From Alphaproteobacteria bacterium (lineage in GTDB: Bacteria; Pseudomonadota; Alphaproteobacteria; SHVP01): 64,000 bases of DNA. The notes below the pieces were generated by a model. That model was not told where the DNA came from. It saw only the letters and a program-made list of their open reading frames with translations, and did not search any database. Position 1 is the first letter of the stretch. Every line of letters starts with the position of its first letter. Positions 914 to 58,972 of this stretch are shown here, piece after piece. Where the stretch lies: NCBI GenBank assembly GCA_016869765.1, contig VGES01000015.1, positions 1-64,000 of the forward strand, read 5' to 3'. The position numbers and the translations under genes are program-made.

Positions 914-2086
914 CTACTTGAAGGCGCAGAACAGGTAGTGGCGCCGCGCACCGCGGGGCGAGCCCATCACCTTGTCGGCGGCGACCGCCGCCGTGACCTG
1001 CGCGGCGACCGACGGCGCATAGCCGCGGTCTTCGAACACCTTGTCAGCGGAGAAACCGGCTTTGACCGCTTCCTCCGGCAGATTCATCGAGTGGATTCGC
1101 GTCCAAAAGGGTTCGTTGTTGTTGCGGCAATCCCAGTCCCGCACCCACTGCTGATAGACCTCGACCCCGCGATAGGGCGGCTGCTCGGAGTGGACCATCA
1201 GTCCACCCGGCCGCAGCAAACGTCGGCACTCGCCGATCAGGTTCAGCACAGCACTGTGCGCCATCTCGTGCAGAAGTGCCCCCGACACGATGAGGTCGAA
1301 GTGCCCATCGGGAAATTTCGTGTGTTCGGCGTTTTGTTGCGAGAAATGGATGGCCTTGCCCAGGCTCTCGGCGCGCGCGTGGCCATAACGCAAGCAGGCC
1401 GCCGAAACGTCGATTGCATGAATTTCGGCATCGGGATAGATGTCGGCCAGCGGCAGGGTACCGTTGCCCGCGGTGCAGCCCATGTCGAGGATGCGTTTGG
1501 GCTGGAAGTCGGGGAACTTGTGCTTGATGTAGAGCACGACGCCCCGACCGATGCCGTCCATCAGGGGCCCGAAGTTGCCGTCGACGTAGATATAGGCACC
1601 GCGGTCGTAGAGCGCACCCGCCGAGACGTCGTCCGGCGCGCGCTCTTCGGCATAACCGCCGGGCATGGCGTGGTGGTGGTTATCGCCGACGTAGGCCGGA
1701 ATCGGCAGCGCCGAGTCGAGAGTCAGCGAACCGCGCGTCTTGCCGCGGCGAACGTTCTTCGCGGTCGAAATCATCGTTGGCAACTGGCGCTCGATCGAGT
1801 CGAGCACGGAGTCCCAAAGCATCTCCTGGCTCGCACGCTGCAACTCGCTCGACATCTGAAAAAACGGGCGGTCGTCCATCGCGCGACGCACCTCGTGCAA
1901 CGAGGTCGGCGCACGTCCATTGGCCCGCTCGAACGCGGGCCGTACCTCGTGTTCATAGATGTCGCGATTGCCCGGAGATACGTCGCTCCGCACGTAGTGC
2001 GCCAAGCTGAACACGAAATGCTGGCGGGCAGCTTCGTCGTGCAACGGCGTGGGCAGGACGGCATGACGTGTCTGACGATCGGGCAT
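914..2086 (-). CDS. Class I SAM-dependent methyltransferase
   Basis: A 390-residue protein. The C-terminal half is a methyltransferase fold: motif I ILDMGCTAGNGT near residue 195, an acidic AIDVS at the end of strand 2, FDLIVSGALLHEM as motif IV, and LLRPGGLMV as the post-motif strand. The first 150 or so residues have no motif I recognise and may be a substrate or lid domain; they include a His-rich DNHHHAMPGGY stretch near residue 137. The substrate is unknown. It converges on the SDR to its left and diverges from the GST at 2185, sharing a 98-bp promoter region with it. Confidence 0.85.
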   Translation of the reverse strand: MPDRQTRHAVLPTPLHDEAARQHFVFSLAHYVRSDVSPGNRDIYEHEVRPAFERANGRAPTSLHEVRRAMDDRPFFQMSSELQRASQEMLWDSVLDSIERQLPTMISTAKNVRRGKTRGSLTLDSALPIPAYVGDNHHHAMPGGYAEERAPDDVSAGALYDRGAYIYVDGNFGPLMDGIGRGVVLYIKHKFPDFQPKRILDMGCTAGNGTLPLADIYPDAEIHAIDVSAACLRYGHARAESLGKAIHFSQQNAEHTKFPDGHFDLIVSGALLHEMAHSAVLNLIGECRRLLRPGGLMVHSEQPPYRGVEVYQQWVRDWDCRNNNEPFWTRIHSMNLPEEAVKAGFSADKVFEDRGYAPSVAAQVTAAVAADKVMGSPRGARRHYLFCAFK

Positions 2087-4370: not shown

Positions 4371-5393
4371 TCAGGCCTGGACGAAGGCCCAAGCGTAGCC
4401 GTCCGGCGACGTGCAGCCGAAGGCAGGTGCGCCGAACTCGTCTTCGAGCACCTGCCCCGTCCAAGGCACGCCGGCGCCGGCCACCTTCGAACGAAGGCGG
4501 GCAAGGTCCATCGAGCGATAGGTATAGAGCGAATACCCGAAATTCCCGGGCGCCGACGCACGATACCAGCGATCGTCCTTGGCCGACTCTGGGAGGCGAA
4601 ACACCCGCAGCTTGCCCGACAATTGCCGGTCGGGTTCCGGACCCGAACGCACGTCGTCGAAATCGGTTTCGAACAGCAACTCGCCATCTCGCATCGGCAT
4701 CATGAGAGCTGGCAATGTGCCTCCCTCTACTACGATCCGCCGCTCCGAGATGCGCTTGAGGCCGAGAACCTGATCGTAGAAGCCGAGCAACCCCTGATCG
4801 TCGGGACCGATGCATATACCGGCCTGCGTGAACTGGCTGGCGCGCAGCAGGCAGTGCTCGTTGTAACGCCCGAAGTTGGGCAGCTCGTGGGCGTAGCGTT
4901 GCACCAGCACCTGCCGCCCTTCGCGCCAGAACATCGGCAGCTCACGTTTGTGCGGGAAATCGTCTCGGAACGGTTGCGTCTGGTCGAGGGTCACGCCGAC
5001 GGGGTGAAACACGGGTTCCAGGTACCAGAGGTCCATGCCCTGCGCTTTCCAAGCGCGTGCGTGATCGGCAAACAACTGGACGTCTCGCGTCTTCGCGACG
5101 GTCCAGCGGTTGCCGGGCGTGCGCAACGGTATCTGTCCAAGCCCTTCGCCCGTGGGCTTGTCCCACGTCATCAGGCGGACGAGACCGTGATCGGCGTCCT
5201 GGTGCAGGAGCCTCACCGATCGCACCGCCGAGGCGACGCCATAGAGGCGTTCGGCCGCCGCCGCTCCAAGACGACCCGTCGTACCGACGCGGTACCCGAA
5301 GGCCTGCCAATGGCCGATCGCCGCTGCCAGATCGGCAACACCGACGCCCACCTCGTACATGCCGCCCAAGACGGCCGGTTCGTTCTTCGTCAT
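4371..5393 (-). CDS. Two-domain VOC (glyoxalase-like) protein
   Basis: A 340-residue protein with two vicinal-oxygen-chelate-like halves. The first begins GGMYEVGVGVADLAAAIGHW, the second FTQAGICIGPDDQGLLGFY, and each has the beta-alpha-beta pattern of glyoxalase and extradiol-dioxygenase superfamily members. I cannot place a full set of metal ligands with confidence, so the reaction (isomerase, dioxygenase or binding) is open. It is divergent from the M19-like gene at 5437 with only 43 bp between the starts, so the two may be co-regulated. Confidence 0.75.
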   Translation of the reverse strand: MTKNEPAVLGGMYEVGVGVADLAAAIGHWQAFGYRVGTTGRLGAAAAERLYGVASAVRSVRLLHQDADHGLVRLMTWDKPTGEGLGQIPLRTPGNRWTVAKTRDVQLFADHARAWKAQGMDLWYLEPVFHPVGVTLDQTQPFRDDFPHKRELPMFWREGRQVLVQRYAHELPNFGRYNEHCLLRASQFTQAGICIGPDDQGLLGFYDQVLGLKRISERRIVVEGGTLPALMMPMRDGELLFETDFDDVRSGPEPDRQLSGKLRVFRLPESAKDDRWYRASAPGNFGYSLYTYRSMDLARLRSKVAGAGVPWTGQVLEDEFGAPAFGCTSPDGYAWAFVQA

Positions 5394-5436
5394 CTCCTCA
5401 GTTTACGGCGTGGGCGCGAATGAACGAAGATGGCGT

Positions 5437-6417
5437 ATGACCGCCGCACAACTTCATCGCGACTTGACCGTGTTCGATGGGCTCATCCTGTCGGCGCCGA
5501 CGCGCGCCGTGTTCGAGGACATTCACCGCGGTGGTATTACCGCCGCCAATTTCACCTGCTCGATCTGGGAAGACTTCCGCGGCACCATGCAGAACGTTGC
5601 CAAGTGGAAGAACTGGATCACCGAACACCATGACATCCTGCGGCCGGTGCACTCGGTGGCCGACATCCGCCGCGCCAAGGCCGAGAACAAGGTCGGGGTA
5701 TCGCTCGGCTGGCAGAACTGTACCGGCATCGACGATCAACTCGGCTTCCTCCAGATCTACAAGGCGTTGGGCGTCGGCTTCATCCAACTCACGTACAACA
5801 CCCAGAACCTGATCGGGACGGGTTGCTACGAGAGCCGCGACTCGGGCCTTTCGGATTTCGGCCGCGAGGCCGTCCACGAGATGAACCGCGTCGGTATCGC
5901 CGTCGATCTCTCCCACGTCGGCTCCAGGACGTGCGCAGAGACGATCCGGCACTCGAAGAAGCCGGTGTGCTACACGCACACCTGCCCTCGCGCGCTGCGT
6001 GATCACCCGCGGAACAAGAGCGACGAAGAACTCCGGCTGATCGCTGATCATGGCGGCTTCATCGGCGTCACCCGCTTCACCGTGCTGCTACGCCGCGGTC
6101 AGAACTCCGACCTCGAGGACTATCTCGATGCCATCGAACACACGATCGACGTGGCGGGAGAACAGAACGTGGGAATCGGCACCGACATGGTGCAGGACCA
6201 ACCCGACGCGCTCACCGAGTACTGCATCCGCGACAAAGGATACGCCCGTCAGCTCACCGACTTCGGTACGGTGAAAGAACTCAAGGGACTGGAGCGCCAC
6301 CACGAGATGCCGAACGTGACCGCGGCCATGCTCGCCCGCGGCTGGTCCGAGACTCGCGTTCGCGCGGTCATGGGCGAAAACTGGCTTCGTTACTTGACCG
6401 AAGTGTGGGGCGAATGA
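5437..6417 (+). CDS. Peptidase M19 (renal dipeptidase-like) family protein
   Basis: A 326-residue TIM-barrel protein of the membrane-dipeptidase family. Matches include GFLQIYKALGVGFIQLTYN, VDLSHVG (metal His), VCYTHTCPRALRDH (second metal His) and GIGTDMVQDQ near the end. The N-terminal D-G-H-x-D motif that supplies two ligands of the first zinc in canonical M19 enzymes reads VFDGLILSAP, so it is not a textbook dipeptidase. I chose the ATG at 5437; an upstream start at 5359 would read back through the divergent gene's start. Its stop overlaps the next start as ATGA, and it leads an operon with three SDRs, suggesting release of a substrate that they then oxidise or reduce. Confidence 0.8.
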   Translation: MTAAQLHRDLTVFDGLILSAPTRAVFEDIHRGGITAANFTCSIWEDFRGTMQNVAKWKNWITEHHDILRPVHSVADIRRAKAENKVGVSLGWQNCTGIDDQLGFLQIYKALGVGFIQLTYNTQNLIGTGCYESRDSGLSDFGREAVHEMNRVGIAVDLSHVGSRTCAETIRHSKKPVCYTHTCPRALRDHPRNKSDEELRLIADHGGFIGVTRFTVLLRRGQNSDLEDYLDAIEHTIDVAGEQNVGIGTDMVQDQPDALTEYCIRDKGYARQLTDFGTVKELKGLERHHEMPNVTAAMLARGWSETRVRAVMGENWLRYLTEVWGE

Positions 6418-7154
6418 CCGATCTCAAGGGAAAACTCGCGCTTGTGACCGCCGCGGGTTCGCCGATCGGAGCCGCCTGTGCCGCCCGGTTGGCCGATGCC
6501 GGTCATCACGTTATCGCGGCCGACACGGACGGAACCGCGGCCGCGGCCGTGGTCGCACTCATTCGCCAACACAACGGTTCGGCCGAGTTCGCACCGCTCG
6601 ATGCGAGTGATGAGCGCAACTGGCGCGCCATGGCCGGGCACATCCGCACCAAATACAAGCGCCTCGACGTCCTGGTGCAAGCGGCAATGACCCTGCTGGT
6701 CAAACCCTTCACGGAGACCACGCTCGCGGACCTCCGCTCGCTCGCCCGCGACAACATCGTGGCGCCGTGGCTGGGCTTGCGACACTGCGCGCCCCTGCTG
6801 CGCGAAGCGGGGAACGCCTGCGTCGTCAACCTGACGTCGACCGTCGGACGGACCGCCCATGGCGGGGCCGCAGCACTCTCGGCCACCGCCGCCGGCGTGC
6901 GCATGATGACGAAGTCGGCCGCCCTCGAATGGGGCCCGCAGGGTTACGGCGTCACCGTCAACACGGTGAACGTCGGCAGCGTGCCCTGGCGGCCGCACGC
7001 GGAAACCACGCAGGACGATCTCGACCTCGGCCCCGCAATCGCACCCTCCGAGGTCGCCGAGGCCGTGCTCTACCTGTGTTCGCCGGCGGCCAAATACATC
7101 ACCGGGATGGAGATCACGTTGGACGGCGGCCGCAGCATCGGCTTCCCAGGATGA
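6414..7154 (+). CDS. Degenerate SDR-fold protein lacking catalytic Tyr and Lys
   Basis: A 246-residue SDR-fold protein. The N-terminal Rossmann segment is recognisable (LALVTAAGSPIG) and the tail is normal (ITGMEITLDGGRS). The NNAG motif reads VQAAM, and YxxxK reads LSATA, so both proton-transfer residues are gone. It cannot work as a normal SDR. It is translationally coupled on both sides through ATGA overlaps, and the next gene encodes an SDR that keeps YxxxK. A known precedent is BbsC of BbsCD, an inactive SDR subunit paired with an active one; a non-catalytic subunit role here is inferred. A relative with the same losses lies at 55596. Confidence 0.85.
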   Translation: MTDLKGKLALVTAAGSPIGAACAARLADAGHHVIAADTDGTAAAAVVALIRQHNGSAEFAPLDASDERNWRAMAGHIRTKYKRLDVLVQAAMTLLVKPFTETTLADLRSLARDNIVAPWLGLRHCAPLLREAGNACVVNLTSTVGRTAHGGAAALSATAAGVRMMTKSAALEWGPQGYGVTVNTVNVGSVPWRPHAETTQDDLDLGPAIAPSEVAEAVLYLCSPAAKYITGMEITLDGGRSIGFPG

Positions 7155-7933
7155 CGGCGCTCGCCGGCCAAGTCGCGATCGTCACCGGCGCCACCGGCGG
7201 CCTCGGTCGACCGATCGCGGTTGCCTTGGCGGCGGCCGGGGCCAAGGTCGTCGCGACCGGGCGCAATGTCGAGCGAGGCGAGGCAACCGTTGCGGCCATC
7301 ACCGTTTCGGGGGGCGAAGCCACGTTCCTTGCCCAGGACGTGACTCGCGACGAGGACTGGCAAACGGTGATCGCGCAAACGATCGCCGCCTTTGGGCGCC
7401 TCGATGCCGTGATCAACAACGCGGGCGATGCGCGCCTCGCCCCAATCGAGGAACTCACGCTCCAGGACCTCGAGTATCTGCTCGATCTCAATCTCCACGG
7501 TTCATTCCTCGGCCTCAAGCATGCGTTCGCCCACATGGGCACCGACGGCGGCGCCGTCATCAACCTGACCGCGTTGCCCGCCTATGGCGGCGCGGTGCGC
7601 CAAACGGCCTATTCTGCAGCCAAGGGGGCGCTCGCCCATTTGACCAAGGCCGCGGCGATTGCCGGCCGCGCGCGCGGCATTCGTGTGAACAATATCGTTC
7701 CGGCCGTGTTGTTCGCCGGCGGCGAGGTTTCCCCCGGCGCCGTGCGGGTTCAGGGTGATCCCGCCGCCGCCGAGCTGTTCAAAGCCCGCGCCATCGCGCA
7801 AAGCCCCCTCAAGAAGCTCGGCGAGCCCGACGACGCGGCCCGGGCCGCGGTGTTCCTATGCTCGCGGGCCGGCCGCCACATCTCCGGCATCGATGTCTTC
7901 ATCGACGGCGGCCGGCAGGCCGGCGGCAACTGA
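7151..7933 (+). CDS. SDR family oxidoreductase (tandem copy 1)
   Basis: A 260-residue classical SDR: VTGATGGLG, INNAGDARLAPIEEL and YSAAK are present. The position 13 residues before the Tyr is Ala (INLTALPAYGG) with a Thr one residue earlier, so the usual catalytic Ser is absent or replaced. It starts inside the stop of the degenerate SDR (ATGA) and ends one base into the next start (TGATG), so translation is coupled along the operon. It is clearly a paralogue of the next gene over its full length, with shared blocks such as GRARGIRVNNIVP and a GGN C-terminus. Confidence 0.9.
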   Translation: MTALAGQVAIVTGATGGLGRPIAVALAAAGAKVVATGRNVERGEATVAAITVSGGEATFLAQDVTRDEDWQTVIAQTIAAFGRLDAVINNAGDARLAPIEELTLQDLEYLLDLNLHGSFLGLKHAFAHMGTDGGAVINLTALPAYGGAVRQTAYSAAKGALAHLTKAAAIAGRARGIRVNNIVPAVLFAGGEVSPGAVRVQGDPAAAELFKARAIAQSPLKKLGEPDDAARAAVFLCSRAGRHISGIDVFIDGGRQAGGN

Positions 7934-8715
7934 TGGGCGTGTTGGACGAAAAAGTCATCGTCGTGACCGGAGCGAGCGGCTCGCTCGGTCGTGCGATGAC
8001 TGTGGCCCTCGTCGAAGCCGGCGCCACCGTGATCGGCACCGGTCGAAACCTCAAGCTGGGCGAAGAGACCGTCGCCCTTGCGACCCGTCACGGCGGCAAG
8101 GCGGTCTTTCTCGCCCACGACGTGACCGAAGACGGTGATTGGTCGCGCGTCATGCAAGAGGTCATGAGCCGATACGGTTGTCTCGATGCCGTCGTCAACA
8201 ATGCGGGTGATGCTCGCCTCGCACCAATCGAAGAACTGGCGCTCGCCGATCTCGAGTACGTCCTGCGCCTCAACCTCGAGGGCTCGTTCCTCGGCCTCCA
8301 GCACGCGTTTCGCCACTTCGGTCCTGAGGGCGGAGCCGTCGTCAACGTAACGGTCCTCACGGCCTACGGCGGCAATGCGGGTTCCACCGCGTACGGCGCG
8401 GCCAAGGGGGCGCTCGCCCAACTCACCAAGGCGGCCGCTCTGGCGGGACGCGCGCGCGGCATCCGCGTCAACAACATCGTGCCGGGAGTCCTGTTCGCCG
8501 GCGGCGAACTGTCTGCAGGGGCGATCCGCGTCCACGGCGGCCCCGAAGGTGCCCAGCGCTTCAAGGAGCGCATCATCGCCAAGACTCCGCTGCGCCGGCT
8601 GGGCGAACCCGAAGACGCCGCGCAGGCCGCCGTCTACCTATGCTCCGATGCCGCACGGCACGTGAGCGGCATCGACCTCGTTGTCGACGGCGGCCGCCTT
8701 GTCGGTGGCAATTAG
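7933..8715 (+). CDS. SDR family oxidoreductase (tandem copy 2)
   Basis: A 260-residue classical SDR, adjacent paralogue of the 7151 gene. It has VTGASGSLG, VNNAGDARLAPIEEL and YGAAK; the expected catalytic Ser position is Val (VNVTVLTAYGG), as in its neighbour, so the pair shares this departure. The start overlaps the previous stop by one base. It is the last intact gene of the M19-SDR operon. Its last 24 codons are echoed by a remnant at 9828, evidence that a further copy once existed. Confidence 0.9.
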   Translation: MGVLDEKVIVVTGASGSLGRAMTVALVEAGATVIGTGRNLKLGEETVALATRHGGKAVFLAHDVTEDGDWSRVMQEVMSRYGCLDAVVNNAGDARLAPIEELALADLEYVLRLNLEGSFLGLQHAFRHFGPEGGAVVNVTVLTAYGGNAGSTAYGAAKGALAQLTKAAALAGRARGIRVNNIVPGVLFAGGELSAGAIRVHGGPEGAQRFKERIIAKTPLRRLGEPEDAAQAAVYLCSDAARHVSGIDLVVDGGRLVGGN

Positions 8716-10119: not shown

Positions 10120-11655
10120 TCAACGCGCCAACTCGATCTCGTGATAGTTGGGCGCGCGGTTGGCCATCTTGTAGTTGCGTACGTTGCGCGCCAAGCCGGT
10201 GACCTGGATCGCCTCGTAGAGATACAGGGACAACGCGTTGTCGTGATAGTACTGCATGATCTGGGTGACAAGCGCCGTGCGCTTGGCCGGATCGGTCTCG
10301 ACGTTCGCCGCCTCGATCGTCGGCTGAATCGTCCGATCGCAGATGAAGTTGCCCCGGCCACTGCACGACTGCGTAACCAGAGCGCGCATGACATCGGCCG
10401 TCGGGAACGGCTCGTAGATGGTCGAGATGCCGATACCATCCCACGCTTTCTGACCGACAAAGCGCTGGATGAAATCAGGAATGGTCAGGTTGATGAGTTC
10501 CAATTCGACGCCCACCCTCGCCAGGTCGGAGGCCATATTCTGCATCGCCACACCGAAATCGCCGAAGGTGACGATCTCGATCTTGGCCTTGAGGCCGTTC
10601 AGGAACCCAGCCTCGGCCAGCAGCGCCTTGGACCGAACGGGATCGTACGCATAGGGCCGGATCGCCGGTACGTGGCCGGCGATGTTGCTGGCCGCCGGCT
10701 GGCCGGCGGACTTGGTCAAGCCGCCGAGCACGTTCTTGACGAAGCTCTCGCGATCGACGCCGTGGCTCAAGGCCCGGCGCACGCGAACGTCCTTGAACGG
10801 ACTGTCTTTGATCAGGTTGAAGCCCATCGAAACGACGTCGCCCACCGGCGTCACCGACACCGAGCCGCCCGCCGCAGCGATGCGCGGCCCGTCGTCCGGC
10901 GTCAGCGACCAGGCGATGTCGATCTGACCCGAGGTCAACGCCTGCAATCGTGCCGCGTTCTCCGGCAGCTCGTTGATCACCAAACGCTCGACCTTGGGCT
11001 TGCGCCATGCCTCGGGGAAGGCTTCGGCACGGATGCCTTCCGGAGTCCACGACACAACGCGGAACGAACCGGTGCCGATCGGCTTCACGCCAAATCCCTC
11101 CGGTCCCATTTCCCTGTAGGCGCCCACCTCCATCGGACGGAACAACGCGAACCAACGATCCATGATCGGTTGCGGCACCTTGGTCTTGATCTCGACCGTG
11201 GTCGCATCGATCGCCCGGCCGGTGATGACGAAGTCGTTCAGCATGCGCCCGCCAGAGGTCGTCTTGCCCTCGTCGGTGAGGATGTATTCGACGTTCGCCA
11301 CCACCGCGGCGGCATCCATCGGTTTGCCGTTATGGAACCTCACGCCCGGGCGCAGCTTGAAGATCCAGGTGTCGTTGCCCTGTGCCTGCCAGGACGTTGC
11401 CAACCCCGGTTGCAGCTTGGCCTCGGCATCGACGTAGGTGAGCGAGTCGAAGAACGCCATCAGCGGCATGACGTCGGCCGCGGCAAACGCCCAGTGGACT
11501 TGCCCCTTACGTGGCCCGAACGCGGTGTTTCCAACCCGTAGCGTCTGTTGCGCGCGCGCTTCCGACGACAGAACGATGCTATCGACCGCTGTTATCGTCG
11601 TCGTGGCGATCAACGCGGCGACGACACTCCCGATACTCCTTCGTGCTGTGGCCAT
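10120..11655 (-). CDS. ABC transporter substrate-binding protein, family 5 (peptide/nickel type)
   Basis: A 511-residue periplasmic solute-binding protein. It has a signal peptide (MATARRS, hydrophobic core, end near SEARA-QQ) and the family 5 blocks LRPGVRFHNGKPMDAAAVV and RRALSHGVDRESFVKNVLGG. These proteins feed peptides, opines or related solutes to an inner-membrane ABC transporter. No permease or ATPase gene lies near, so its partner is elsewhere. The ATG at 11655 follows a GGGAGGG site; upstream ATGs would add a non-signal extension. It is the best guide for repairing the nonsense-mutated paralogue at 57255. Confidence 0.92.
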   Translation of the reverse strand: MATARRSIGSVVAALIATTTITAVDSIVLSSEARAQQTLRVGNTAFGPRKGQVHWAFAAADVMPLMAFFDSLTYVDAEAKLQPGLATSWQAQGNDTWIFKLRPGVRFHNGKPMDAAAVVANVEYILTDEGKTTSGGRMLNDFVITGRAIDATTVEIKTKVPQPIMDRWFALFRPMEVGAYREMGPEGFGVKPIGTGSFRVVSWTPEGIRAEAFPEAWRKPKVERLVINELPENAARLQALTSGQIDIAWSLTPDDGPRIAAAGGSVSVTPVGDVVSMGFNLIKDSPFKDVRVRRALSHGVDRESFVKNVLGGLTKSAGQPAASNIAGHVPAIRPYAYDPVRSKALLAEAGFLNGLKAKIEIVTFGDFGVAMQNMASDLARVGVELELINLTIPDFIQRFVGQKAWDGIGISTIYEPFPTADVMRALVTQSCSGRGNFICDRTIQPTIEAANVETDPAKRTALVTQIMQYYHDNALSLYLYEAIQVTGLARNVRNYKMANRAPNYHEIELAR

Positions 11656-26028: not shown

Positions 26029-27543
26029 ATGGTATCGCCGTTGATGCGCGCACTGCTCGCCGCGACCGCCGGTTGCTTCATCGCCGGCGTCGCGCTGGCT
26101 CAGCCCGCCGACACCATCCGTGTCGGCCACTGGGATTTTCCGGCTGGTCGCGGAAACCCGCACTCGGGCGTCCCCGGCGTCCCGCAGATCTACATTTGGT
26201 CGACGATCTTCGACACGCTCACCTACGTGAACGAGAAGGGCAGTCCGACCGCAGGGCTCGCGACTGCTTGGCAGAACGTCAACCCGACAACGTGGCGTTT
26301 CACGATGCGGGCCGACGCCAAGTTCGCCAACAATGAACCCATCGACGCGAACGCGGTCGTTGCGGTGTTCGATTTCTACAAGACCGAGCGCGGCAAGACG
26401 CTGACCGGCGCCCAGACGTTCAACTACGTGACCCAGGCCCGCGCGGTCGACGCCAAAACCGTCGAACTCGTCACCGCGGCGCCACGCCCGATCTTCCCCA
26501 ACCAGGTGGCCGCGCTCTACGTGACGCCACCCAAAGCCTTTGCCGACATGGGGATCGAGCAGTTCAGTGCCAAACCGGTAGGCTCCGGGCCCTACCAGCC
26601 GCTCGACTGGACGGGGGATCGCATTCGCCTCGAATCCAACAGCAACTCCTGGCGCGTGGCCAAGACGCCGAAACTCGAGTTTACCCGGGTGCCCGAGGCG
26701 GTCGCCCGGCGCCAGGCGCTCATCTCGAACCAGATCGACATCATGATTCAATCGACCGTCGACGACATGGCTCCGGTCAAGGCCGCCGGTGGTACGGTCG
26801 ACGTCGTGCCCTCGCCACTCCTCTTGCAATTGGGCCTGGTGCTGGAGAACGCCAAGGAAGGCGTCGACATCACGCCGCTCAAGGACGTGCGCGTGCGTCG
26901 CGCCCTCAACCTCGCCGTCGACAAGGAGTCGATCAACAAGAACCTGCTCGGCGGCATCATGGGCATCAACAGCCAGTTCTCGGTGCCGATCGCTTTCGGC
27001 TACAACCGCGACCTGAAGCCGTTCCCCTACGATCTGGATCAGGCGAAGAAGCTGATGGCCGAAGCTGGCTACGCGCGCGGCTTCAAGATCTCGGCGGCGA
27101 TCCGCGAATCGAACGACGTGTTCCAGCAGGTAGCTCAAGACTTGAGCAAGATCGGCGTCACCATGGAAATGACCCCGATCGTACAGGCTGACTGGATCAG
27201 CAAGTTCCTGAACGTGAAATGGGACGGCAACGCGTTTTCGCTGACGCTCGGCGTCGCGCCCGAGATCGACACCATCCGAATGATGCTGTTCCAATCCTGC
27301 CGCAAGAACCCGGCGTACTACTGCAACCGCGACCTCATGCCGTTGGTCGAAGCGGCGGACTCCGAGTTCGATCCGGCCAAGCGTGAGAAGATCCTGCACG
27401 AGCTGATGGCCAAGATGCAGGCGGACGCGCCGGCGATCTTCCTGTTCGAGCAGCAGGACCTGAACGCCTACGGCAAGCGCATTCGCGGCTTCAAGAACGT
27501 CAACCGCGTGTTCAACTACCACGAGATGACGCTGGTCAACTGA
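26029..27543 (+). CDS. ABC transporter substrate-binding protein, family 5
   Basis: A 504-residue periplasmic binding protein with signal peptide (MRALLAATAGCFIAGVALA cut before QPAD) and family 5 blocks (AKFANNEPIDANAVVAVF, RRALNLAVDKESINKNLLGG, PYDLDQAKKLMAEAGY). It should deliver a peptide-like solute to an ABC importer, but no permease or ATPase gene is nearby. GAGGGGGGA precedes the ATG at 26029; ATG 26044 is an alternative. It is followed 16 bp on by a methyltransferase gene and probably shares its transcript. Intact, unlike the paralogue at 57255. Confidence 0.92.
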   Translation: MVSPLMRALLAATAGCFIAGVALAQPADTIRVGHWDFPAGRGNPHSGVPGVPQIYIWSTIFDTLTYVNEKGSPTAGLATAWQNVNPTTWRFTMRADAKFANNEPIDANAVVAVFDFYKTERGKTLTGAQTFNYVTQARAVDAKTVELVTAAPRPIFPNQVAALYVTPPKAFADMGIEQFSAKPVGSGPYQPLDWTGDRIRLESNSNSWRVAKTPKLEFTRVPEAVARRQALISNQIDIMIQSTVDDMAPVKAAGGTVDVVPSPLLLQLGLVLENAKEGVDITPLKDVRVRRALNLAVDKESINKNLLGGIMGINSQFSVPIAFGYNRDLKPFPYDLDQAKKLMAEAGYARGFKISAAIRESNDVFQQVAQDLSKIGVTMEMTPIVQADWISKFLNVKWDGNAFSLTLGVAPEIDTIRMMLFQSCRKNPAYYCNRDLMPLVEAADSEFDPAKREKILHELMAKMQADAPAIFLFEQQDLNAYGKRIRGFKNVNRVFNYHEMTLVN

Positions 27544-54822: not shown

Positions 54823-55593
54823 TCAGGCGATGACGTAACCGCCGTCGATGATGAACTCGGCGCCGGTGACATGGCGCGACTCGTCCGAGGCGAGAAACAG
54901 CATGATCTGCACGATATCCGTCGGGTCACCGACGCGGTGCAGCGGGACCTTGGCCAGCATGCGTTCGCGGAATTTGGCCGCGCCGTCGGGTCCCAGTGAT
55001 TCGATCATGCCGGGCCCCCAGATGATCCCGGGGTGGACCGAATTGACCCGCACCTTGCTGGCCCGACCCTCGAGCGCCGCCACCTTCGTGATGCCGGTGA
55101 TGCCGCCCTTGCTCGCGCAATAGGAGGTCGTGCCGTTGGCGCTGCCCTTGAGGCCGGTCGCCGAGGACATGTTGATGACCGAACCGCCGCCCGACCGCTC
55201 GATCGCCGGCACGCCGTGCTTCAACCCGAGGAACACGCCCTCCAGGTTCGTCTGCATCTGGAAATAGAAGTGTTCGACCGTGAGCTGCTCGATCGGCTTC
55301 ATGATCGCCTCGCCCGCATTGTTGTAGAGCACATCGAGGCGGCCGTAACGTTCGACCACCGCGGCGATCACGCGCCTCCAGTCGTCCTCGTTGCGCACGT
55401 CCTGGGTGACGAAGGTGGCTTCGCCGCCCTGTTGCTCGATGGCGCTGACCGTGATTCCGCCGCCCTTGGTCTCGGCCGGGAGGCCGCCGACGACGACCTT
55501 GGCACCCTCGCGCGCGAAGGCAATCGCGGTCGCCCGCCCGATGCCGGACGTTGCGCCGGTGATCATCGCCACTTTTCCGTCGAGTCTGCCCAT
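54823..55593 (-). CDS. SDR family oxidoreductase (canonical partner)
   Basis: A 256-residue classical SDR: ITGATSGIGRATAIAF, NNAGEAIMKPIEQL, MSSATGLKGSANG and YCASKGG, so Ser, Tyr and Lys are present. The ATG at 55593 lies 2 bp after the stop of the degenerate SDR upstream; a GTG at 55599 would overlap that stop as GTGA. In either case the two are translationally coupled. It is the active member of the pair by motif and should act on an unknown alcohol. Confidence 0.9.
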   Translation of the reverse strand: MGRLDGKVAMITGATSGIGRATAIAFAREGAKVVVGGLPAETKGGGITVSAIEQQGGEATFVTQDVRNEDDWRRVIAAVVERYGRLDVLYNNAGEAIMKPIEQLTVEHFYFQMQTNLEGVFLGLKHGVPAIERSGGGSVINMSSATGLKGSANGTTSYCASKGGITGITKVAALEGRASKVRVNSVHPGIIWGPGMIESLGPDGAAKFRERMLAKVPLHRVGDPTDIVQIMLFLASDESRHVTGAEFIIDGGYVIA

Positions 55594-55595
55594 GG

Positions 55596-56273
55596 TCACG
55601 CCGCCACCGGGCTACCGTCGATCACGATCTCGGTGCCCGTCATGTAAGTGGATTCGTTCGAAACGAAATAGACGACCGCGCCCGGCACGCCTTCCACCGC
55701 CGGGGGATGGGTCGGGTCGATCAGGATCGAGTTGATCCGCGTGCCGTCCGCCTTGACGCCGCATTCGAGCGCGGCGGCCTGGGCCATCGGCTTGAGCGCG
55801 CCGGCGGCGGCCGAATTTGCCGCCGTATCGATCCTCGCGTTGCGCGCCAGGGTTGTCGAAATCAGGACCACCGCGCCGCCGTTGATCTTGCGCAGCTCCA
55901 TCATCGCGTACTTCATCCCGAGCCACGGGCCGAGGATGTGGGCATCCTCGAACGCCTTCCAGTCGGTGAGCGACCAATCGCGCAAGCGCCGCGACACCAA
56001 CGGCGGCGGCCCACTGACGAACGCATCGAAGCGCCCGAACGTTCCGATCGTCATTTCGATGGCGCGCTGCCAGTCGCTTTCCTTGGCGGGATCGACGGCC
56101 AACGGAAGCGCCGTTTTGGCGTCGAACGCCCCGGCCGCCCGCCCGGCACGCTCCTCGGCCGGATCGGCGAGGACCACCCGCGCTCCTTCTTTGATCAGGG
56201 CGCGAGCGCAGGCCTGGATCAGATCGCTCCCGGCCCCGGAGAGCAGCACGACCTTGCCTTGAACCCGATTCAT
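55596..56273 (-). CDS. Degenerate SDR-fold protein lacking catalytic Tyr and Lys
   Basis: A 225-residue SDR-fold protein. The glycine-rich loop is altered (LLSGAGSDLIQA in place of TGxxxGIG), NNAG reads VSGPPP, and YxxxK reads NSAAA. The tail (YMTGTEIVIDGS) still fits the fold. It is thus not a normal oxidoreductase. Similar losses occur in the 6414 product (both have a PWLG helix start and the LSATA or NSAAA replacement), and both are coupled to a normal SDR. A non-catalytic subunit role is inferred. Confidence 0.85.
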   Translation of the reverse strand: MNRVQGKVVLLSGAGSDLIQACARALIKEGARVVLADPAEERAGRAAGAFDAKTALPLAVDPAKESDWQRAIEMTIGTFGRFDAFVSGPPPLVSRRLRDWSLTDWKAFEDAHILGPWLGMKYAMMELRKINGGAVVLISTTLARNARIDTAANSAAAGALKPMAQAAALECGVKADGTRINSILIDPTHPPAVEGVPGAVVYFVSNESTYMTGTEIVIDGSPVAA

Positions 56274-56314: not shown

Positions 56315-57166
56315 TTACGGCACCCTGGCCAGAAAGTCGTCGATGGCACGAAGCGCCTCCGGTTCATCGAGATGCGGGCAATGCCCGCGCCCGGGCACCT
56401 CGGCGACCTCCAGATCGGGCTTGCGCCGTTTCATCTCGGCCAACACGGTCCGATCGAGAATGTCGGAGACCGCACCCCGGATCGCCAGGGCCGGAATGGG
56501 CCGCATGGCATCCCACGCCGGCCACGGGTCGCCCGAGCCCTGCCGCTCGCGAAAGCCACGCCCATAGTCGGGGTCCATGTCGGGCACGACCTTGCCATCG
56601 GCACGGCGCCGAAAGGTTCGTCGCGTCCGCTCGAGCCATTCCTGGTCCGAGAGCGTGATGCCCGGGACCGCGCGCGCCTTGATCTCGCGGCTGGCGTCTT
56701 CGACCGAGTCGAACTCCATGGTGAGACCCATGAATTCCTGCACCCGCTTGCGCCCGGCCTCGCCCATGACCGGACCGGCATCGTTGATGATGGCACCGGT
56801 GATGACCTCGGGCCGGTGCGGCGCCAGTTGGATGGCAATGATGCCGCCGACCGACGTACCGATGATGACGACATTCGGGATTCGCTCGGTGGCCAGGAGT
56901 TCGAGGATGTCATCGCGGAGTTCAGGGAATGTGTAGTGCCGCCAGTCGGGGTCGTGGTCCGACCGCCCATGCCCCCGCCAGTCCATGCACAGCACGCGAC
57001 GCTGATTCACGAGATGATCGGCAAGTTCCTCGAACACCCGCGAGTTCTGGGTCGTCCCCGAGAGACAAAGGACCGTTGCCTTGTTCGAATGCGGGTTGGC
57101 GTAGTCACGATAGTAGAGGCTGAGCCCATCGCGCGTGCGGAAGCGTTTTTCGACGAACCCGGCCAT
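56315..57166 (-). CDS. Alpha/beta hydrolase with intact serine nucleophile
   Basis: A 283-residue hydrolase. It has CLSGTTQNSRVFEEL as the oxyanion region, MDWRGHGRSDHDPDW as turn, elbow IIGTSVGGIIAIQLA with Ser, AIRGAVSDIL near the acid, and GRGHCPHLDEP with the late His. All three parts of the triad can be placed. It is upstream of the SDR pair on the same strand. A family esterase or C-C hydrolase role fits, substrate unknown. Confidence 0.88.
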   Translation of the reverse strand: MAGFVEKRFRTRDGLSLYYRDYANPHSNKATVLCLSGTTQNSRVFEELADHLVNQRRVLCMDWRGHGRSDHDPDWRHYTFPELRDDILELLATERIPNVVIIGTSVGGIIAIQLAPHRPEVITGAIINDAGPVMGEAGRKRVQEFMGLTMEFDSVEDASREIKARAVPGITLSDQEWLERTRRTFRRRADGKVVPDMDPDYGRGFRERQGSGDPWPAWDAMRPIPALAIRGAVSDILDRTVLAEMKRRKPDLEVAEVPGRGHCPHLDEPEALRAIDDFLARVP

Positions 57167-57254: not shown

Positions 57255-58772
57255 CTAGCGTGTCAACTCGATATCGGCCCAGTTGATGCGCCAGTTTTCG
57301 TTTTTGTAGTTCTTGACCTTGCCCGACGTCGCATCGAGCGTGTGCTGGTCATACAAATACAGGACCGGCGCCTCGTCGTGGTAGATCTGAGCCAGTTGGC
57401 GCAGGTGGGCCGAGCGCTTCGCTGGATCGAACTCGCTGTTGGCCGCCTTGATGATGGGCTCGGCTGCCTGGATGCAGGTCCACTTCTGCTGCGCTTCGCA
57501 ATTGTAGTAAGCGTTGATGGGACGCATCATGTCCATCGAGGGACCCGAGCCGAAGTTGAAGATGTGCATCTGACCCTCGTAGGGTTTGACGCCGTTGAGG
57601 CGCGCCATCACGTCGGGGATGGTGATGATCTTCAGCTCCAGTCCGACGCCCACCTTCGACAAGTCCTGCGCCACTTTTTGCAGCACGTTGGCGAGATCGG
57701 CGTCGTTGTTGCTGACCTCGGACACGATCTTGAGGCCGTTCGGGTAACCCGCTTCGGTCAGCAGCCGCTTGGCCCGGTCCGGATCGTACGGATAGGCCTT
57801 GATGTCCGCCTGATAGCCGTTGGCCGACGTCGGCGCGGGCTGCCCGGAGGCGTTGGTCTAGCCGCCGAGCAAGGTCTGCGTGTAGGACTTGTCGCTCGCG
57901 TAGTTCAGGGCCTGGCGCACGCGCTTGTCCAGGGTGAAGCCACCCTTCGACTGGTTGAACACGAGGCCGAGCACCGAGGGCGTCGTCGCGGAGTTGATCG
58001 CGCCACCGGCGGCCTTGACCAGATTGACCACGTCGGCCGAGAGGTTGATCGAGATGTCGACGGCGTTCGACTGGAACGCCTGCACACGGGTCGGCGCCTC
58101 CGGCATGAAATACATGAGGAAGTTGCTGACCTTGGGTTGCCGCACACCGCCGTCGTAGCGCACCGCTTCGAACCTGGTCGCATCCGGGTACGACGTGACC
58201 CGGAACGGACCGGTGCCCGAGGGGCTGGCTCCGAACTTGTCGCGGCCCAGGTCAGACCAGACCTTCGGGTCGACGATGCGGAACGCCGATATCTCGTTGG
58301 GCAGGATCGGGGCCAGACGATCGGTTTTGATCAATACCGTGAGATCATCGACCTTGGTGGCTTCGACGACGTGGCGCACACTGCCGTACACCGATGCGCC
58401 GAACTTCTTCTGGTCGTCGGTCTGCAGGTTCTTGACCGCGAAAACGATCGCATCGGCGTTGAACGGCGTGCCGCCGTGGAATTTGATGTTCGCTCGCAAC
58501 TTGAACTCCCACGTGCTGGGGTCCTTGTTGCTCCACGACGAGGCCAGCCGGCTCTCGGGCTTGCCGTCACCGCCAACGGTCGTGAGTGCGTCGAAGATCG
58601 CTTCGTACACGTAGCCATGCTGATAGCCGATGCTCACCGTCGGATCGCCCTTGTTGGGCGGCTCCGCCAGATTCGCCACGCGCAGGGTCTGAGCCGATAC
58701 GCCGGAACCGATCGTCAGCCCGGCCACTAGTCCGGCCACGAGCGTGGTACGCCCCACCTTTTGCTGAACCAT
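57255..58772 (-). pseudogene. Family 5 ABC substrate-binding protein with one nonsense codon
   Basis: Reads as one frame of 505 codons except for TAG at 57858-57860 (codon 305). The first part has a signal peptide (VGRTTLVAGLVAGLTIGSGV) and WEFKLRANIKFHGGTPFNAD; the second has GYPNGLKIV and IYHDEAPVLYLYD. In the 10120 paralogue the same place reads GGLTKSAGQP, so a Leu TTG became TAG. No other damage is seen, so the change is recent, or an error, or read through by a suppressor. GGGAGGG precedes the ATG at 58772. Confidence 0.88.
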
Positions 58773-58972
58773 GGTCACCCTCCCATGGCCGGAGGCCCCG
58801 AGGCCCATGCCCCAGCGTCGCAACGGCCAGGGCACGACTCTAGACGCACCCGGAAGGAGGAGTCTCGGAAACCCGCCGCAACAGCGCGATCAAGAAAACT
58901 ATTGATCAGTGATTCTCGCTCGCCGAGTATCGGCGGAATTGCGCCTTCAAGAGAAACCTCGGCTCGCGGCGC

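Follow-up and report, generated by a model that had tools for sequence, protein, structure and literature searches.

What does an SDR contribute once it has lost its catalytic motifs, when its gene stands directly in front of one for an SDR that still carries YxxxK? The question is raised by a gene in a 64,000-nucleotide stretch of an alphaproteobacterial contig (hereafter the window), the product of which, SDR A, has a degenerate active site and is encoded in overlap with a second SDR, SDR B. A sequence-only reading of this locus had proposed a hetero-oligomeric SDR in the manner of BbsCD. Here, we argue that the broken-looking SDR A is probably a structural subunit because the pair is always inherited together within one bacterial family.

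Gene Arrangement and Motifs in the Window

The SDR genes are part of an apparent operon that begins with an M19 peptidase gene (Table 1). SDR A starts within the stop of the peptidase gene in an ATGA overlap (6414–6417), and a further ATGA connects A with B, an arrangement that may couple their translation. SDR B in turn meets a third SDR gene, SDR C, in a TGATG junction. The pair that had been read at 6414–7933 is real, and the array holds three SDRs instead of two.

In SDR A, V-NNAG is replaced by V-QAAM (QAAM codons 6678–6689) and YxxxK by LSATA, with L155 and A159 at the positions of Tyr and Lys (codons 6876–6878 and 6888–6890); these losses and the ATGA junction to the downstream SDR had been described before and are present as described. 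Moreover, the glycine motif reads TAAGSPIG in place of TGxxxGIG, and the substrate loop is short (23 aa vs. 41 in B). The catalytic Ser is still present in SDR A, as is the Asn that corresponds to N114. SDR B retains TGATGGLG, NNAG, N114, Y154, and K158 and has Ala141 for the catalytic Ser (codon 7571–7573). SDR C likewise retains NNAG, N114, Y154, and K158 together with the two outer glycines of the glycine motif, the middle one being Ser, and has Val141 at the catalytic Ser position (codon 8353–8355).

A second pair is encoded elsewhere in the window. Its A protein has SGPP for NNAG, NSAAA for YxxxK, and a loop of 7 aa, and its B protein, which comprises 258 aa from a GTG at 55599 or 256 aa from an ATG at 55593, possesses the complete N-S-Y-K tetrad.

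Table 1. Features of the window and of the bbs reference locus L187.
Feature	Position	Strand	Basis or remark
Methyltransferase	914–2086	-	
340-aa protein, VOC-like by eye	4371–5393	-	divergent from the apparent M19-A-B-C operon
M19 peptidase (membrane-dipeptidase type)	5437–6417	+	Pfam PF01244, 276 bits
SDR A, candidate dead subunit, 246 aa	6414–7154	+	adh_short_C2 profile (PF13561), 128 bits
ATGA stop/start overlap A-B	7151–7154	+	sequence
SDR B, partner, 260 aa	7151–7933	+	AF2 model, pLDDT 88
SDR C, tandem copy of B	7933–8715	+	65% identity to B
Peptide/nickel-type ABC binding protein	10120–11469		
Peptide/nickel-type ABC binding protein	26044–27543		
Second-pair partner SDR, B family	54823–55599	-	B-family profile, E = 3.5e-113
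Second candidate dead SDR, A family, 225 aa	55596–56273	-	A-family profile, E = 1.9e-90
Alpha/beta hydrolase	56315–57166	-	
Peptide/nickel-type ABC binding protein	57255–58808		
BbsC	L187 14630–15379		best PDB match Thauera BbsC (7pcs)
BbsD	L187 15412–16158		best PDB match Thauera BbsD (7pcs)

Distribution and Origin of the Pair

Thirteen A/B loci are found in six of ten genomes from the bacterial family, representing four of its six genera. Five of them belong to the window's own genome, two in the window and the others on contigs C16, C30, and C32. As the sequence-only reading had suggested, we examined whether the two genes are conserved as neighbours, and A lies directly upstream of B at all 13 loci in the six genomes, with a spacing of −4 to +12 nt at the 11 loci with intact A. 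A second B is present at two loci, at 6414 in the window and on C32. The adjacency is obligate also from the side of B: all 15 B-family genes of the ten family genomes (E-value 1e-104 or better) adjoin an A, and the profile then falls from 1e-104 to 1e-65, where ordinary SDRs begin. Neither a solitary A nor a solitary B occurs among these ten genomes. An A-B-B′ triplet of the window's genome (L022 5033–7305) has its own B duplication, and its A has Tyr and not Lys.

Among 385 sampled genomes of the class, matches to the A family are confined to this one bacterial family, and the next-best proteins (E-value 1e-72 or weaker) are ordinary. Of the next-best SDRs in other genomes, 46 were read, and 45 keep YxxxK, which shows that the loss of the motif in A is not due to chance. 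The plasmid records searched contain only ordinary SDRs (approximately 36% identity or less), and a search for related loci with the B alignment retrieved generic SDRs only.

In a tree with active SDRs, the A proteins form one clade and the B proteins another (support 100/99 in each case), and the distances within the two correlate (r = 0.70, Mantel p = 2e-4). The pair has a single origin as a unit within the bacterial family, and catalytic loss precedes its radiation. One clade of A and B together is not rejected (AU p = 0.40), and thus A may descend from an ancient tandem duplication of B. A placement of A beside the RADH branch is not rejected either (AU p = 0.22), and an origin from an RADH-type branch is equally allowed. 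The uniform gene order and correlated trees, together with purifying selection on A, bear out the view of a dead and a live SDR as a coupled pair.

Constraint on SDR A

By its Pfam profile and AF2 model, SDR A has the SDR Rossmann fold, and NNAG, YxxxK, and TGxxxGxG, which mark catalytic classical SDRs, are all missing. The AF2 model (pLDDT 87) resembles SDR structures with TM-scores of 0.81–0.88 (query-normalised) and lacks the FG helices, which are present in the model of B. Across the A family, NNAG and Lys are each found in none of 13 proteins and Tyr in one (G000e), so that the joint regain of Tyr and Lys, which would have spoken against a dead subunit, is not seen. The lid between β-6 and α-G measures 5–25 aa in A vs. 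34–41 in B, and the substrate loop is incomplete in all 13 A proteins.

In classical SDRs, helices αE and αF form the Q-axis dimer face. Conservation in A is shifted toward these helices (0.46 vs. 0.30 elsewhere, a difference reached in 8 of 232 circular shifts), whereas in B they are conserved below average (0.42 vs. 0.49 elsewhere). The least conserved part of A is the lid region (0.07). The invariant columns of A are M1, L26, G30, W70, D106, W119, L120, R130, A170, E172, N183, and T230, half of which lie within αE/αF.

These data bear on what else A might be. A ligand-sensing homodimer or another separate binding or regulatory protein, co-transcribed with B and forming no stable complex with it, would account for the SDR fold, the partial glycine motif, and the selection on A, and the conservation of αE/αF also fits an A homodimer. 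Furthermore, some ligand binding by A is conceivable from the Ser and Asn kept in several members and the Tyr of G000e. However, the fixed order and coupling at 13 of 13 loci and the correlated trees argue against separate proteins, as does the position of the conserved residues at the interface helices and not at the pocket, and we consider this alternative unlikely. SDR folds can use other residues, and the constraint on A would also be expected of a neofunctionalised enzyme with a different catalytic activity. Yet no new set of polar residues is found among the invariant columns, with their concentration in αE/αF, and the lid is cut down to 5–25 aa, which makes such an enzyme distinctly improbable.

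A third alternative is that A is a decaying duplicate kept beside B by chance. A evolves approximately twice as fast as B, and in one genome (G008) each of two A genes contains one in-frame stop (L173 ~5364–6067 and L025 ~74–748) beside an intact B, one of the stops falling at the Trp of a conserved PWLG motif. The assembly of this genome is fragmented and 87% complete, and the stops may reflect consensus error or indicate that A is dispensable there; if real, they are the strongest objection to an essential role of A. Nevertheless, A is under purifying selection, with dN/dS of 0.19–0.24 vs. 0.09–0.13 for B (full-length orthologue pairs), and is intact at the other 11 loci in four genera. Together with a single origin in which catalytic loss came before the radiation, this leaves decay very improbable.

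Partners Without the Catalytic Serine

Dihydropteridine and pteridine reductases are SDRs that lack the catalytic Ser and act on other substrate classes. SDR B and C combine N114, NNAG, and YxxxK with the absence of this Ser, and Val occupies its position in three orthologous B proteins (G003, G006, and G008). The five Ser-less B-type proteins share a lid that is 5–7 aa longer than in other B proteins, while Ser is kept in the other 10 B-family members, including the partner of the second pair in the window. Because the catalytic Ser in SDRs polarises the substrate carbonyl (PMC7540600), B and C can be termed active only presumptively. The description of the partner as an active SDR thus holds for YxxxK, which both B and C keep, and not for the Ser.

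Judged by its residues, the sub-clade of the first pair has no subunit type with a complete Asn-Ser-Tyr-Lys tetrad: of Ser, Tyr, and Lys, A has Ser only and B and C have Tyr and Lys. It is possible, though on balance doubtful, that the proteins of this sub-clade form an obligate heteromer in which hydride transfer proceeds without the carbonyl-polarising Ser, perhaps onto a C=N or C=C substrate, and in which activity depends on the dead subunit.

Comparison With BbsCD and Other SDRs

BbsCD is the one bacterial SDR with a built-in dead subunit known to us, and we take it to be a C2D2 heterotetramer. As reference we used BbsC and BbsD of Thauera (PDB 7pcs) together with a second bbs operon, which was located by means of the BssC_TutF family (PF08201). 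This profile has no match in 399 Polaromonas-order genomes. This second operon (L187) comprises bssA, bssC, an activase, a thiolase, BbsC, BbsD, two CoA-transferases, and an acyl-CoA dehydrogenase, as named from gene order and, for BbsC and BbsD, also from PDB matches. Its BbsC (G1000) keeps YSAAK and Ser, but NNAG has become NNTD and the glycine motif reads GACDDIG; hence, BbsC subunits vary in the extent to which catalytic residues have decayed. In contrast, no A combines Tyr with Lys.

According to the title of the BbsCD paper (doi 10.1111/febs.16216) as cited in PMC10818641, BbsCD is a heterotetramer with built-in pseudoenzyme subunits. Its dead SDR gene lies directly upstream of the live one, as in A/B, and, as in A, NNAG and the glycine motif are gone from BbsC, and so, in Thauera, are Tyr and Lys. 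However, BbsC and BbsD group with a FabG-type SDR (support 100/99), A and B are not FabG-like, and A differs in its shortened substrate lid, as does the first-pair partner of the window in lacking the catalytic Ser. The bbs operon context is absent as well: neighbours of bbs type (CoA-transferases, benzylsuccinyl-CoA dehydrogenase, thiolase) were not found around the pair, among the window ORFs at 1–16 kb. BbsC is among the PDB matches of A and absent from the best 60 matches of the A-family profile. Kinship of A with BbsC is rejected (AU p = 0.001), as is kinship of B with BbsD (AU p = 0.0004). Gene order, classes of loss, and the PDB match notwithstanding, a diverged BbsCD of the benzylsuccinate-pathway type is hardly credible given the FabG grouping, the AU tests, and the missing neighbours. 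The resemblance to BbsCD noted earlier therefore stands as a mechanistic analogy and falls as kinship: A/B is an independently evolved, family-restricted variant that is BbsCD-like in its working and not a member.

By profile and fold, the nearest solved structures are RADH for A and isopiperitenol DH and GDH for B (1zjy, 7djs, 4mow). NADP-dependent R-specific alcohol dehydrogenases and glucose-dehydrogenase-type SDRs are homo-oligomers in which all subunits are catalytic. A and B share the fold of these classical SDRs, and A has lost the catalytic residues. The human mitochondrial 3-ketoacyl-ACP reductase HSD17B8/CBR4, a heterotetramer as reported in PMC6168690 (its ref. 41), likewise has two different SDR subunits per tetramer, as A/B would have, but is eukaryotic and not operon-encoded. 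Searched largely in journals that need no subscription, the literature yielded no relevant further case of an SDR heteromer with a pseudoenzyme subunit.

Genomic Neighbourhood

Neighbours of the pairs in the window include alpha/beta hydrolases, a GST-like protein, a methyltransferase, and peptide-type ABC binding proteins, and MFS, FAD oxidoreductase, and enoyl-CoA hydratase genes are found near orthologous pairs. The neighbourhood looks catabolic, with conservation too low for naming a pathway. For the methyltransferase and the alpha/beta hydrolase listed in Table 1, homologues lie close to pairs in G002 (41%) and G006 (57%), and the two are possibly loose neighbours of the pairs. The 340-aa protein gave no match in a Pfam search; in G006, a 42% homologue (L027 12707–13714) is found approximately 5 kb away from the orthologous pair. 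By eye, two D-aminoacylase/amidohydrolase-like genes lie at approximately 32–39 kb, and with these and the ABC binding proteins the 64 kb read as a dense catabolic island.

A Putative Hetero-Oligomeric SDR

We consider it likely that A and B together form an SDR that is obligately hetero-oligomeric, with A2B2 as the most probable composition, A being a pseudoenzyme scaffold or allosteric subunit and B the catalytic one. The Rossmann core and the αE/αF helices are retained in A, but NNAG, which cradles the cofactor, is gone along with Tyr and Lys and the greater part of the lid over the substrate; this pattern points to a scaffold or allosteric role. In such a complex, A would fold, pair with B through αE/αF, and stabilise or shape it, and may order the site of B. 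B, or C, would bind NAD(P) and transfer hydride using Tyr and Lys; TGR after β-2 in B suggests NADP as the cofactor. At the A-B-C array of the window, a single A may serve both B and C or be competed for by them. The pair arose once and was then copied and diversified as a unit.

In annotation, genes of the A type will pass for ordinary SDR oxidoreductases despite the missing residues. The A/B loci differ in whether the partner has the full tetrad or lacks Ser, in whether they are pairs or A-B-B′ triplets, and in the length of the lid (5 to 25 aa), and they provide a natural series in which the contribution of a dead subunit can be studied. As a second independent origin, documented at 13 loci, they indicate that pseudoenzyme subunits are a repeatable evolutionary route for SDRs.
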